DNA from: an uncultured Lachnospiraceae bacterium
Lineage (GTDB): Bacteria > Bacillota > Clostridia > Lachnospirales > Lachnospiraceae
Assembly: GCA_902793335.1 (NCBI GenBank)
Contig: CADBCZ010000027.1
Coordinates: forward strand, 374-38,474
Length of the DNA stretch: 38,101 bases
Direction of reading: 5' to 3'
The notes under the pieces are model-generated. The model did not search any database and was not told the DNA's origin. It saw only the letters and a program-made list of their open reading frames with translations. Below, piece after piece: positions 15,278 through 18,711 of the stretch (position 1 is its first letter; each line of letters begins with the position of its first letter). A program made the position numbers and the translations under genes.

Positions 15278-16818
15278 AGAAAAATATGAGTTTTTCGGAA
15301 TTGTCAGGTATGGCGAATCTGTATTATACATCTTATAATAATGTTCCGCTAAAGAAAAGGTTAAAAATTGGAGGCATTTCAGGATTATTTGCATTTATGG
15401 TAATTATTTTACAAAGCCACAATGGATTAAATTTGACTTTACTTGGAATGTTTGCAATGATGGGATTATTTTGGAATGTTGCTTTTTTGCATAAGGGAAT
15501 ATCAAAGATATCCAGAACTCTTCCTGTAAAGGATACATTTGTAGTGAGGAATATTCTCTTTATATATCCATTAATATATATTGTAATTGTTTTGAGCATA
15601 GCATTTTTGCTAATTTTCATAATTGGAATAGGTGATCAAATTGTTACCGGCGATTTTGGAAATGCTATATCTGATTTAGCAATGGAAATATCATTAATAG
15701 ATGTTTGGGGAGGTTTGTTTGAAGTAGCTATTATACTGGGTGTATGGTTTTTGCTCGGATTGCAGGCATTTTACAGAAACCAGACTAGAAGAACTTTTGG
15801 ATATATTGTGATAGTAGTGTTAATAGGAATACTTATTATTGGTATTTCGGTAGTAATGAATGGTAAAAGTAAAGGTGTTTCGGGATATAGATTATATGAA
15901 ATAATATATATTCTACCGACAGCACCAACAGTTGCCGGAGCTGTAACATTTGCTGTTATATCCGGACTATATGCTTGGAAGAAGAGTCTGTATTTGTATC
16001 GTCATGATGTTAATGGACAGAAAAAAAGCAAAGCCGGAAAGAATAATAATAGGGGTTCGGTTGATAGTACATTGACGGATTCTAAGACGTATAAATCAAT
16101 GGCGAAATTTGTTGTTGTTGGATGTATTGTAGTATTAGCCTTGACGAGTTTTATGTTAAGGTTTATTGTTACCGGTATATTTGGCGAAGTGACAGACAGT
16201 GGAGAAGGTGAGATTCATTTCGAAACCGAAAAAATAGAAGAGTATTCGGATTGGAATTCTTATTTTGAAAGAGAGGACAAGCAGGATGTTAATGATATGA
16301 TTTTTGGCAGTTTTTCAGAAAGCTTAATTTTTCCTGAGAATATTGACGAGAAGTACGTTACTGAGTACTATGCGTCTGTTGATGGGGATTACAGTTATAA
16401 GATATATGGAGGGGAAGACGGTGGAGAACCTGAGGATGGACCGAGTATGTCATGTACTTCTGACATTTATTCTACACGATTTATGGTAGTTGACTATCCT
16501 AAAGAGGATTATATTAAGGAGTGCGCTAGAATTAAAAACATAACTTATTCTTTGGATTTGATTGATAGAATACAGACTAATCATATGCTGACGGATACAG
16601 AGAACTTTGATGGAATTGCGTATATTGCAGAATATGATAAATTTGATGGTTGTGAATATGTGATAACAAATGATGATACCTGCAGAATAATATATGTACT
16701 AAAAAACGGAACTGATAATATACCAACAGAGGTGAATTATAAGCCTAAAAAATTTTCGAGAGTTGTTCCAATGGAAAAAAGAAATTACGGCAAAGGGTAT
16801 TCTATATATCAGGAGTAA
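15271..16818 (+). CDS. large membrane protein with C-terminal extracytoplasmic domain (exporter subunit)
   Basis: 515 residues. About seven hydrophobic segments lie up to residue 305, the last being FVVVGCIVVLALTSFMLRF. They are followed by about 200 acidic, hydrophilic residues (from DSGEGEIHFETEKIEEYSD to the end). With a cytoplasmic N terminus and seven spans, this domain would face outside. The segment KGISKISRTLPVKDTFVVRN resembles the ABC-2 permease motif of its upstream neighbour. It may be a second permease with a sensing or substrate-handling domain. I see no close named family for the outer domain. Codon use is more AT-rich than the upstream ATPase gene. Confidence 0.72.
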   Translation: MLKKNMSFSELSGMANLYYTSYNNVPLKKRLKIGGISGLFAFMVIILQSHNGLNLTLLGMFAMMGLFWNVAFLHKGISKISRTLPVKDTFVVRNILFIYPLIYIVIVLSIAFLLIFIIGIGDQIVTGDFGNAISDLAMEISLIDVWGGLFEVAIILGVWFLLGLQAFYRNQTRRTFGYIVIVVLIGILIIGISVVMNGKSKGVSGYRLYEIIYILPTAPTVAGAVTFAVISGLYAWKKSLYLYRHDVNGQKKSKAGKNNNRGSVDSTLTDSKTYKSMAKFVVVGCIVVLALTSFMLRFIVTGIFGEVTDSGEGEIHFETEKIEEYSDWNSYFEREDKQDVNDMIFGSFSESLIFPENIDEKYVTEYYASVDGDYSYKIYGGEDGGEPEDGPSMSCTSDIYSTRFMVVDYPKEDYIKECARIKNITYSLDLIDRIQTNHMLTDTENFDGIAYIAEYDKFDGCEYVITNDDTCRIIYVLKNGTDNIPTEVNYKPKKFSRVVPMEKRNYGKGYSIYQE

Positions 16819-16861
16819 ATGTTAGAATATCCGACTAAATTCAGATTTTTGCCGAAAACAC

Positions 16862-16892
16862 TTGACCTTAAAGTGACTTTAACCCTTATAAT
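16862..16892 (+). promoter_or_regulatory. MerR-type promoter with 19-bp spacer and central palindrome
   Basis: TTGACC (16862-16867) and TATAAT (16887-16892) are 19 bases apart. The spacer holds a perfect palindrome, TTAAAGT-G-ACTTTAA (16868-16882). An over-long spacer centred on a dyad is the hallmark of promoters that MerR-family activators twist open. The reading frame downstream is a decayed merR. Confidence 0.8.
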
Positions 16893-16928
16893 CAGCTAAT
16901 AATAAGGTCGGATGGAAGGAGTCATTTG

Positions 16929-17009
16929 ATGAAGATAAACGAAGTTGAAGAGCTGTTACAGATATCAAACTATTATATAGTATATGCAATGCATATTTTT
17001 TTGACTTGA
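16929..17009 (+). pseudogene. truncated MerR-family regulator remnant
   Basis: After a GGAAGGAG site an ATG opens MKINEVEELLQIS, which matches the first helix of MerR-family regulators. The sequence then leaves the family (NYYIVYAMHIFLT) and stops at 17007-17009, where a MerR protein would continue for over 100 residues. No MerR tail is visible before or after the following two genes. The break at about codon 14 is just before the first long palindrome, so the ORF6N/XRE segment probably displaced the rest. Confidence 0.7.
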
Positions 17010-17032
17010 AGTTCCAAATTGGAACTTCAAGT
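17004..17032. repeat. palindrome copy 1 (non-coding)
   Basis: ACTTGAAGTTCCAA (17004-17017), a central A, and TTGGAACTTCAAGT (17019-17032) form a perfect 14-base-arm palindrome. Read in the frame used by the coding copy it gives LKFQIGTSS. It overlaps the end of the merR remnant. Confidence 0.95.
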
Positions 17033-17054
17033 TGTAAATTTGTTGGGAAGAAGT

Positions 17055-17093
17055 ATGAACAAAAAAGCTTTAAAAATGAGGCTTTTCAGTTAA
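17055..17093 (+). other. 12-codon ORF between the palindromes, possible leader peptide
   Basis: ATG 17055 to TAA 17093 reads MNKKALKMRLFS after a weak GGGAAGAAG site. The coding bases also form a weak hairpin, AAAAGC with GCTTTT. It could be chance; it is recorded because it lies exactly between two long palindromes. Confidence 0.2.
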
Positions 17094-17108
17094 ATTGTGA
17101 AATTATGC

Positions 17109-17149
17109 CAATCAACTTGAAGTTCCAATTTGGAACTTCAAGTTGATTG
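17109..17149. repeat. palindrome copy 2, directly upstream of the ORF6N gene
   Basis: The left arm (17109-17128) starts CAATCAACTTGAAG and ends TTCCAA. After a central T the right arm (17130-17149) is its exact complement. The arms are a perfect 20 bases. The inner 29 bases equal copy 1 except for the central base. In the coding frame it would read LKFQFGTSS. It ends 4 bases before the ribosome site of the next gene and has no T-run, so it is unlikely to be a simple terminator. Confidence 0.95.
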
Positions 17150-17173
17150 AGAGAAGGGAGAGACATTGGCTAT

Positions 17174-18145
17174 ATGGATACAAATGATGAAATAATAGTA
17201 TATAATAAAGATTTGAACATCGATAAACAGATAATATATAATTTAATACATGTTGTTCGTGATAAACAGGTAATGCTCGACTGTGATTTGGCTATGCTGT
17301 ATCGAGCAGAAACAAAAAATTTGAATAAAGCAATGAAACGAAATCAAAAACGTTTTCCCGAAGATTTTTGTTTTCAATTGACTGAAGAAGAGTATACAAA
17401 CTTGAAGTCGCAAATTGCGACTTCAAGTTCTAATAATAACGAAATAGAAAATAATACACATGGTGGTAGAAGAAAACTTCCATATGTTTACACCGAACAG
17501 GGAATAGCTATGCTTTCAGCAGTACTTAGAAGTGATGTAGCAATTCAGGTCAGCATAAGAATCATGAAAACCTTTGTTGATATGAGAAAATATCTTGCAA
17601 AGAATTCGATGATTCTTGAAAAGGTTAACTATATTGAGCAACGACAGATTCAAACAGAAATTCGGCGGGATAATTTTGAAAAGTATACGGATGAAAGATT
17701 TGACAGGATATTTGATTACATAGAAACTCACAAAGAGAATAACCAGAAGATATTTTTTGATGGGCAGATTTTTGATGCATTTAGTCTTATAACACAGTTG
17801 GTAAGGCAGGCTGATAAAGATATCATTTTGATTGATGGATACGTAGATGTAAGGACACTCAATATATTATCAAAAAAGAAAGAGGGAGTAGGTGTTGTAA
17901 TTTATACATTTTTAGGTTCTAAACTTACAGACCAGGATATTACTAATTTTAATGCACAATATCCGATGTTAAATGTTAAGAGAACAAATGTATTTCATGA
18001 CAGGTTTTTGATTATAGACGGAATAACAGGATATCATATAGGTGCTTCTATCAAAGATGCAGGCAAGAAATGTTTTGGAATCAACAGAATAGAAGATGTA
18101 AGAATAATAAATGAACTCATAAGAAAAGCGAAGATTACAAATTAA
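17174..18145 (+). CDS. ORF6N-domain protein with C-terminal HKD/PLD-like domain
   Basis: About 323 residues. An N-terminal ORF6N domain (KilA-N-related, found in phage antirepressors; about 20-135) contains VMLDCDLAMLYRAETKNLNKAMKRN, FPEDFCFQLTEEE and GGRRKLPYVYTEQGIAMLS. A helical linker (about 140-195) leads to a domain with FDAFSLITQLVRQADKDIILIDGYV and FHDRFLIID ... YHIGASIKDAGKKCF. This resembles a phospholipase-D HKD half-site with Arg in place of Lys. TTG 17147 lies inside the palindrome and is an unlikely start; ATG 17174, 13 bases after AAGGGAG, is chosen. An XRE gene follows after 13 bases. A DNA-binding role is inferred; cleavage activity is not shown. Confidence 0.8.
   Translation: MDTNDEIIVYNKDLNIDKQIIYNLIHVVRDKQVMLDCDLAMLYRAETKNLNKAMKRNQKRFPEDFCFQLTEEEYTNLKSQIATSSSNNNEIENNTHGGRRKLPYVYTEQGIAMLSAVLRSDVAIQVSIRIMKTFVDMRKYLAKNSMILEKVNYIEQRQIQTEIRRDNFEKYTDERFDRIFDYIETHKENNQKIFFDGQIFDAFSLITQLVRQADKDIILIDGYVDVRTLNILSKKKEGVGVVIYTFLGSKLTDQDITNFNAQYPMLNVKRTNVFHDRFLIIDGITGYHIGASIKDAGKKCFGINRIEDVRIINELIRKAKITN
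17398..17428. repeat. palindrome copy 3, inside the ORF6N coding sequence
   Basis: AACTTGAAGTCGCAA (17398-17412), a central A, and TTGCGACTTCAAGTT (17414-17428) form perfect 15-base arms. Compared with copies 1 and 2, TC became CG on the left and GA became CG on the right, so pairing is fully kept. It encodes NLKSQIATSS, between the FQLTEEE and GGRRKLPY motifs of the ORF6N domain. Confidence 0.95.
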
Positions 18146-18158
18146 GGGAGGCAATACC

Positions 18159-18542
18159 ATGGATAGAGAAGAAAAACAGGAAAAGTTGAAAAAACTCAGA
18201 AAAGAAACCGGAATGAGCAGGAGAGAATTTTCAAGGGAATTCGATATACCGTATCCGACGATCACAGATTGGGAATTGGGTAATAGAAGGGTGCCGGAAT
18301 ATCTGTTAAGACTTCTTACATACAAGATTAAAATGGATGAACGCTTCGTGAGTAAACAGCAGAAAAACAGTGTTATTACGGTTTCATTTACAATAGAGGA
18401 TATAAAAGAAATACTCAAGGGAAAAGGAATGGATGCAACGGAAGAGGAAGTTAGGAAATTTATTGAAGCTCTTGACTTGCAAGAATTTAGAAAACAATGC
18501 GTTAATGAGGGAAAAAAACTTCTTGAGGGATATACGCTATAA
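18159..18542 (+). CDS. XRE-type helix-turn-helix protein paired with the ORF6N gene
   Basis: 127 residues. The helix-turn-helix lies near 8-55 (LRKETGMSRREFSREFDIPYPTITDWELGNRRVPEYL), and a separate C-terminal helical part begins at VITVSFTIEDIKEIL (about residue 68). It starts 13 bases after the ORF6N stop with a GGGAGG site, so the two genes are co-transcribed. It could be a repressor of the pair, like an antitoxin or prophage repressor, but no toxin is identified. No terminator follows it clearly. Confidence 0.75.
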   Translation: MDREEKQEKLKKLRKETGMSRREFSREFDIPYPTITDWELGNRRVPEYLLRLLTYKIKMDERFVSKQQKNSVITVSFTIEDIKEILKGKGMDATEEEVRKFIEALDLQEFRKQCVNEGKKLLEGYTL

Positions 18543-18592
18543 ATAATAAAAAGCTATATAAATCAAGACTTTCGTGAAAGACCGCACATTTA

Positions 18593-18645
18593 GGAAAACG
18601 CTTTCCTTTATTTTCGTTGACGTTTTCTCTTTTTCGTGGAATAAT
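18593..18645 (+). promoter_or_regulatory. maltodextrin operon promoter with LacI/CcpA-type operator
   Basis: GGAAAACGCTTTCC (18593-18606) is a near-perfect dyad with the central CG typical of LacI-family and cre sites. TTGACG (18617-18622) and AATAAT (18640-18645) follow with a 17-base spacer. The operator is upstream of the -35, so either steric repression or activation is possible. The local LacI-type gene at the operon's end is the obvious binder; CcpA is an alternative. Confidence 0.6.
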
Positions 18646-18711
18646 AGCCATACCGAGGGTACCCAAAGCAAAAGCAAAAAAATTATACATCCGTTAGGGA
18701 GGACTTATATA

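Follow-up and report, generated by a model that had tools for sequence, protein, structure and literature searches.

The question raised by this locus is why a gene encoding an ORF6N-domain protein carries a perfect palindrome within its coding sequence, with two similar palindromes upstream of it, and whether it is the DNA or the encoded peptide that has been kept. The window, by which we mean the whole stretch of 38,101 nucleotides analysed from an uncultured Lachnospiraceae bacterium, contains the gene and the three palindromes as follows.

17174..18145, + strand: ORF6N gene, with a PF10543 domain and a PLD-like C-terminal domain; PADLOC candidate PDC-S05
17004..17032, no strand: upstream palindrome 1, TC/GA type, with 14-nt arms; predicted cognate site of the ORF6N protein
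17109..17149, no strand: upstream palindrome 2, TC/GA type, with 20-nt arms, directly before the ORF6N ATG; predicted cognate site
17399..17429, no strand: coding palindrome, CG/CG type, inside the ORF6N gene, encoding residues 77-85 (LKSQIATSS)

The gene runs from an ATG at 17174 to a stop codon at 18145, its frame being already open from a TTG at 17147, and the PF10543 profile match of its product (110.2 bits, cut-off 27.8) makes it a member of the ORF6N domain family. The coding palindrome reads AACTTGAAGTCGCAA-A-TTGCGACTTCAAGTT, with perfect 15-nt arms at 17399-17413 and 17415-17429; the initial annotation had recognised this dyad but had placed it one position too low, at 17398..17428. 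The letters that it gave were right (CG...CG in the coding copy, TC...GA in both upstream copies), as were the in-frame readings LKSQIATSS for the coding copy, LKFQIGTSS for copy 1 and LKFQFGTSS for copy 2. The dyad is kept through paired substitutions, as had been claimed, and the same was seen in comparison with the relative G212: the coding copies of the window and of G212 differ at offset 8 in both arms, and their upstream copies differ at offsets 4 and 5, again in both arms. The pattern with up to three mismatches occurred three times in the window and in none of 100 shuffles, and the exact pattern was found at these three places only in the 3.6-Mb genome assembly. Likeness among the three copies is confined to about 31 nt. 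The upstream palindromes, two in the window and three in G212, are spaced 111-112 bp apart (window 16965-17145 and L275), and the surroundings of several of them are similar in sequence. A promoter scan upstream of the ORF6N gene returned no sigma-70 promoter, and palindrome 1 was scored as terminator-like.

When 84,980 species genomes were scanned with fixed arms in which two bases per side could vary, at least 117 stretches from many phyla were obtained, plus four in viral contigs. Among the 123 pattern matches listed, the free bases were complementary in 109; 85 matches lay inside an ORF6N domain, 20 elsewhere on an ORF6N locus and 18 where no ORF6N was found. A dyad of at least 10 of 11 pairs was present in 177 of 190 distinct ORF6N domains (11 pairs in 135, 10 in 42, 9 in 8 and fewer in 5), nearly always at the same domain position, most of these domains having been reached through palindrome-bearing loci or genomes. 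The sample independent of the palindrome came from a PF10543 search of the organism's own family, in which 41 of 150 genomes were positive at 54 places, 47 of them taken as loci. The 41 distinct own-family domains found by PF10543 alone included 37 with a dyad of at least 10/11 (25 with 11 pairs and 12 with 10; 3 had 9 and 1 had 8), and 43 of 49 domains found by PF10543 in palindrome-bearing genomes had a dyad of 10-11 pairs. The PF10543 search of the whole phylum was positive in 4 of 249 genomes, the window's own included. The ORF6N family reaches across bacterial phyla and to one nanoarchaeal contig (L054). A search of complete Escherichia coli genomes with one palindrome of a second reading frame (see below) gave no match.

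Several other arrangements were observed in the family. More than one palindrome lies in or near the loop in the ORF6N genes of L037, L054, L059, L094, L109, L131, L176 and L225, in each of which at least one copy fits the code of the protein's own helix (see below), and the ORF6N gene of L077 has four. The 1.0-Mb genome G179 has 15 ORF6N matches (loci L106, L207 and L212), several of them adjacent and with different palindrome types. Two Segatella copri plasmids, L243 (4.1 kb) and L244 (3.0 kb), are annotated only with a replication gene and an ORF6N gene, whose coding dyads have 11/11 and 10/11 pairs, respectively. On Legionella and Bacteroides plasmids (L247, L248 and L252), ORF6N genes adjoin tyrosine recombinase/integrase genes.

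Rickettsia palindromic elements are palindromic DNA that lies in frame in coding sequence and repeats across unrelated genes of one genome. The ORF6N dyad resembles them in being palindromic DNA kept in frame in coding sequence, and a mobile palindromic element of this kind, or of the REP kind, inserted in ORF6N genes and elsewhere, could account for the single palindromes, several of them intergenic, of those genomes (9 of 39) in which PF10543 had no match. However, the copies are mostly tied to one gene family, as the distribution of the 123 matches given above shows, and many dispersed copies in unrelated genes of one genome were not found; there are three in the window's own genome and, for the patterns searched, one or two in each of the 39 others. 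We regard a mobile element as extremely unlikely. The palindromes in the nine genomes lacking a PF10543 match (L060, L069, L078, L097, L100, L111, L129, L143 and L150) are of the same kind, several of them sit between convergent genes, and L100 has four.

Alignment of 199 domain genes, from which 16 with a dyad below 10/11 were set aside, left 183 genes in which letters and residues could be compared. The arms could have varied independently, or the palindrome could have been a by-product of common codons for its peptide; both outcomes, which the initial annotation had named as those that would speak against it, were tested and neither was found. If each peptide was encoded with randomly drawn codons, and the best-paired of nine centres was used, 5.7 of 11 pairs were expected, while 10.6 were seen, and 184 of 190 genes stood at 1% or less of this null; synonymous codons thus do not explain the dyad. 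The arms covary: at offset 4 they were paired in 157 of 168 genes (57 expected), and no covariation between arms was detected at offset 1, beside the centre. In 12 of the 183 genes the dyad lies in another reading frame and encodes an unrelated peptide (VVTNCDH rather than RSQFVTS), the exact core GGTCRCA..TGYGACC being present in 8 of these 12; it is therefore the DNA that is conserved and not the peptide. Of the proposal that the symmetry is selected along with the peptide, the part on the DNA is thus supported and the part on the peptide is not, since in addition to the off-frame genes, residues 77-85 begin in the structure model where a helix ends and continue into a loop modelled with low confidence (mean pLDDT 85 for residues 71-80 and 50 for residues 81-90; below 50 for residues 83-97 in a second model).

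We measured coupling between every residue of the domain and offsets 3-14 of the palindrome. The two parts of the protein that stood out are, in the window, the following.

17312..17341, + strand: predicted recognition helix TKNLNKAMKR, codons 47-56, of which residues 48, 49, 52 and 56 covary with offsets 3-7
17459..17476, + strand: patch HGGRRK, codons 96-101, at the loop end, covarying with the outer offsets 8, 10 and 13

The strongest couplings outside the stretch encoded by the palindrome were those of residues 52, 49, 56 and 48, which form one face of the predicted helix, with offsets 3-7, and those of residues 96-101 with offsets 8-13. At offset 3, R56 went with C in 158/158 genes and N56 with A in 25/25; at offsets 4/5, R49/E52 went with CG in 49/50 and V49/Q52 with CA in 35/35; and at offset 7, K48 went with G in 141/141. 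For the outer positions, R100 went with G in 121/122 and K100 with A in 36/38 (offset 10), Y101 with G in 61/66 and K101 with A in 57/64 (offset 8), and W96 with C in 41/42 and R96 with T in 18/18 (offset 13). The 12 second-frame genes follow the same code (E52 with G in 7/7, Q52 with A in 5/5). The 49/52 code is broken by 15 of the 183 coding sites, which are the sites from which it was made.

Comparison of 87 disjoint pairs of near relatives showed that a change at residues 49/52 goes with a change at offsets 4/5 (p=1.2e-12), a change at residue 56 with one at offset 3 (4 of 4 changes, p=4.5e-7), a change at residue 48 with one at offset 7 (p=1.9e-6) and changes at residues 97/98/100/101 with changes at offsets 8-12 (p=3.1e-7). 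Crossed controls in the 87 pairs were not significant (p=0.77 and 0.11), and the lowest p value among 300 random residue pairs, taken over 86 sister pairs, was 1.6e-3.

The rule was then applied to 34 ORF6N domains from viral contigs and the phylum search that were unused in making it; 2 of these were dropped, and scoring covered the 32 whose dyad had 9/11 pairs or more. It named the right letter more often than the commonest letter did at offset 4 (31 vs 18 of 32), offset 7 (27 vs 16), offset 3 (29 vs 23), offset 8 (19 vs 8) and offset 13 (21 vs 9), with little or no gain at offsets 5 (29 vs 27) and 10 (24 vs 24). Four of the 32 are at least 90% identical to a training domain; without them the figures were 27/28 vs 17 at offset 4 and 20 vs 22 at offset 10. 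When the gene's own locus was left out of the rule, relatives staying in the training set, 181 of 183 genes had their own coding site in the upper half of a ranking against the sites of other genes (median percentile 0.986). Residues outside the palindrome thus predict its letters, held-out genes included, and the suggestion of a self-recognising element fits. Given the covariation and the prediction of held-out sites, the ORF6N protein very probably binds the palindrome as a dimer.

Two other explanations of the symmetry were weighed against these results. The first is that a nucleic-acid structure is selected, an mRNA hairpin or a DNA cruciform for which any paired arms suffice; the arms are indeed nearly always complementary though their letters vary, and copies at one locus differ from one another with most still symmetric. 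Mismatches on the sense strand in the 50 genes with 9 or 10 pairs were A.C in 16 cases, G.T in 13 and C.T in 12, and the preference for G.U over A.C expected of a structured RNA was therefore not observed (13 vs 16); no Rfam family reached its gathering score over 16800-18650. Structure also leaves aside the finding that protein residues predict the letters, and a hairpin as the main account was dropped for the residue-letter code and its success on held-out genes. A selected structure is accordingly a distinctly improbable cause. The second explanation is mutational homogenisation, in which template switching between the arms would keep palindromes perfect with no functional selection. It would fit the symmetry kept even in copies that are non-cognate to the resident protein, to which it may add, but it predicts neither the core in two reading frames, nor the one usual position in the gene, nor letters that follow helix residues. 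As a whole account it is disfavoured and, in our judgement, very unlikely.

At this locus the protein carries K48, N49, K52 and R56, with HGGRRK at 96-101. N49/K52 calls for TC; this is what both upstream copies have, the letters of the coding copy being CG. When this locus and G212 were kept out of the training of the rule, the two upstream copies scored +7.1 log2 odds each for the window protein and the coding copy -0.8, so that sites in the promoter region are predicted from their letters to fit the resident protein, while the coding copy is predicted to be non-cognate at offsets 4-5. The protein of G212 has R49/E52, its domain being 85% identical to that of the window outside the helix and loop. 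Its two outer upstream copies carry CG and scored +4.7 each, the third upstream copy carries CA and scored -0.7, and its coding copy scored -0.7 (left arm) and +0.5 (right arm); in both the window and G212, the in-gene copy thus scores as non-cognate. The G212 gene is damaged in its C-terminal half, matching residues 1-219 and 282-322 in separate frames, and may be a decaying copy, which makes it weaker as a comparison.

The CG/CG letters of the window's coding copy are those that go with R49/E52, as in G212. The difference between TC and CG is best read as a specificity switch between R49/E52 and N49/K52 in which the upstream sites would have followed the protein, and the coding copy seems to have stayed behind; the direction of the change is one that we infer. 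In another relative, L008, the same N49/K52 helix goes with a coding copy of TC type, and gene parts may therefore also have been exchanged. At this locus the in-gene site may do nothing.

The positions of cognate copies were counted at loci with a single ORF6N gene, with duplicates removed and dyads of at least 9/11. Around the gene start, at -330..-220 from the coding centre, 23/38 copies were cognate when judged by the left arm and 21/38 when judged by the right arm, compared with an expected 10.4 (p=1.9e-5); farther upstream the count was 10/22 (6.2 expected), while copies within 500 bp after the stop codon were not enriched for cognate letters (11/32 vs 9.6, p=0.36). The enrichment near the gene start fits operators at the promoter. 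A stretch at -320..-220 with at least 16 of 22 arm bases like the gene's own coding copy was present in 26 of 169 genes, compared with 18.2 when the copies of other genes were used; upstream operators are not general in the family. In four Flavobacterium loci, which are related, the stop codon of the ORF6N gene is directly followed by an array of palindromes of other types, one to six in number, with the centres below.

L068 4294-4438; L112 3432-3728; L104 2831-2901; L118 2042: Flavobacterium downstream arrays (centres)

The coding palindromes of these four loci all differ, and the arrays are in part unmatched to the resident protein. Such arrays of differing types beside genes with differing coding palindromes, together with upstream copies that read in frame as variants of a coding segment, are what could be expected if silent cassettes rewrote the gene by gene conversion and changed the specificity of the ORF6N domain, as the initial annotation had proposed. 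The data did not support this idea: homology beyond the variable element was not found, only about 31 bp being shared; the specificity residues 48, 49, 52, 56 and 96-101 lie outside the palindrome; and the upstream copies fit the resident protein better than the coding copy does (+7.1 vs -0.8). We therefore give very little credence to silent cassettes.

What the protein may do at its sites depends on its second domain and its neighbour.

17729..18142, + strand: PLD-like domain, codons 186-323, from the structure model and a fold search, with one HxRx4D motif (H275, R277, D282)
18159..18542, + strand: XRE-type HTH gene, which follows the ORF6N gene here and in G212; possible partner

The C-terminal half has a PLD-like fold, with matches to TrmBL2 and NucT in the fold search. 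The HxKx4D motif of PLD nucleases was not found in the window protein, which has HDRFLIID, or HxRx4D, instead. D282, G290 and S292 were invariant in 69 aligned sequences; these had been picked for HDR, so that the invariance of H275 and R277 in them is by choice and is no evidence. A sequence search of solved structures gave no convincing relative (best E 0.025), and neither did the ORF6N domain-only model compared with the PDB (best E 0.37), whose best weak fold matches were SKI-like/Dachshund domains.

The XRE-type gene is common to the window and G212, with 69% identity, and on a Sulfuricurvum plasmid (L250), too, ORF6N is followed by an HTH gene. A comparison over 3 kb showed that the window and G212 share the palindromes, the ORF6N gene and the XRE gene, and that the sequence beyond is not shared. 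In the relative G192, the DNA match begins at window position 18592, 50 bp past the ORF6N-XRE pair, and the gene on the other side differs; this was the nearest case to an empty site of the ORF6N-XRE unit, a clean one not having been found. From these comparisons, the ORF6N gene appears to move as a small unit.

Sites within coding sequence are known in lac O2, gal OI, parS in spo0J and the phage lambda origin in gene O, and some of them sit in the gene of their own binding protein; that of lambda O has an origin-like role. These are single genes, whereas the ORF6N site is kept across phyla, mostly at one position, in two frames and with letters that track the protein. The in-gene site could serve something other than self-regulation, either defence or exclusion or an anchor or origin-like role as in lambda O. 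The window protein matches the profile of the candidate defence system PDC-S05 (E 2.9e-120), as did all five further ORF6N members tested, and its C-terminal domain is akin in fold to nucleases. Genes with the C-terminal HxRx4D motif carry the dyad as often (83 of 89) as short genes lacking this motif do (89 of 97; of the 199 genes, 13 belonged to neither class), so that the domain need not take part in whatever the dyad is used for. On the other side, cutting, replication and exclusion are unsupported by the present data, and single-gene PDC candidates, which were found by guilt-by-embedding, are unvalidated as a class according to the accessible part of PMC12988326, where PDC-S05 is named in the tree methods only. 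A rumen survey counts the phage defence candidate PDC-S05 3275 times (PMC13356809, accessible part). We consider such another use unlikely, though it deserves to be kept in mind. That ORF6N genes are self-addressed, targeting their own gene or the same allele elsewhere, where the PLD-like domain, if present, would act, seems improbable to us; in such a self/non-self allele system, the in-gene site would mark 'self' and flanking arrays of other types would record or absorb other alleles.

The reading that we consider probable, from the agreement between residues and letters, is that the palindrome is a binding site of the ORF6N family, located in the coding sequence of most members examined and bound by a symmetric dimer, most likely for self-regulation. 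Each half-site would be read by one subunit, residues 48/49/52/56 contacting offsets 3-7 and residues 96-101 offsets 8-13; the half-sites have their centres near offset 5 of each arm, some 10 bp from one another, which would place the two helices one turn apart. One and the same protein has to fit both half-sites, which would make the arms change together, and a change in the specificity of the protein would be followed by a change in the site. By binding near the promoter and start codon of its own gene, and in most relatives inside the gene as well, the protein would limit its own expression. A place about 230 bp into the gene is unusual for an operator; one idea is that a gene moving alone would take along any site lying in its coding sequence and so keep its self-regulation.

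The nearest functional parallel that we found, an analogy taken from the accessible part of PMC12255303, is RptR, an autorepressor of a phage defence island. Like ORF6N, it has palindromes at its own promoter and a defence context; RptR is a homodimer, as we infer for ORF6N. Its sites are 6-bp palindromes in the promoter, whereas those of ORF6N are about 27 bp and lie, in most members examined, inside coding sequence. The window protein is a clear member of both PF10543 and PDC-S05, the entries of which give names only. Among the papers found by literature searches on ORF6N and KilA-N, no title or abstract mentioned a site of this kind nor, for ORF6N, a recognition rule, a coverage that leaves subscription papers and preprints largely outside and is no proof of novelty.

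For the PDC-S05/ORF6N family, the result is a readable DNA recognition rule obtained from sequence alone. Since protein and target lie within about 200 bp of each other in most genes examined, many naturally matched pairs are open to direct reading. How DNA-binding specificity evolves thus becomes testable at scale, and the members of PDC-S05 receive a predicted binding site.
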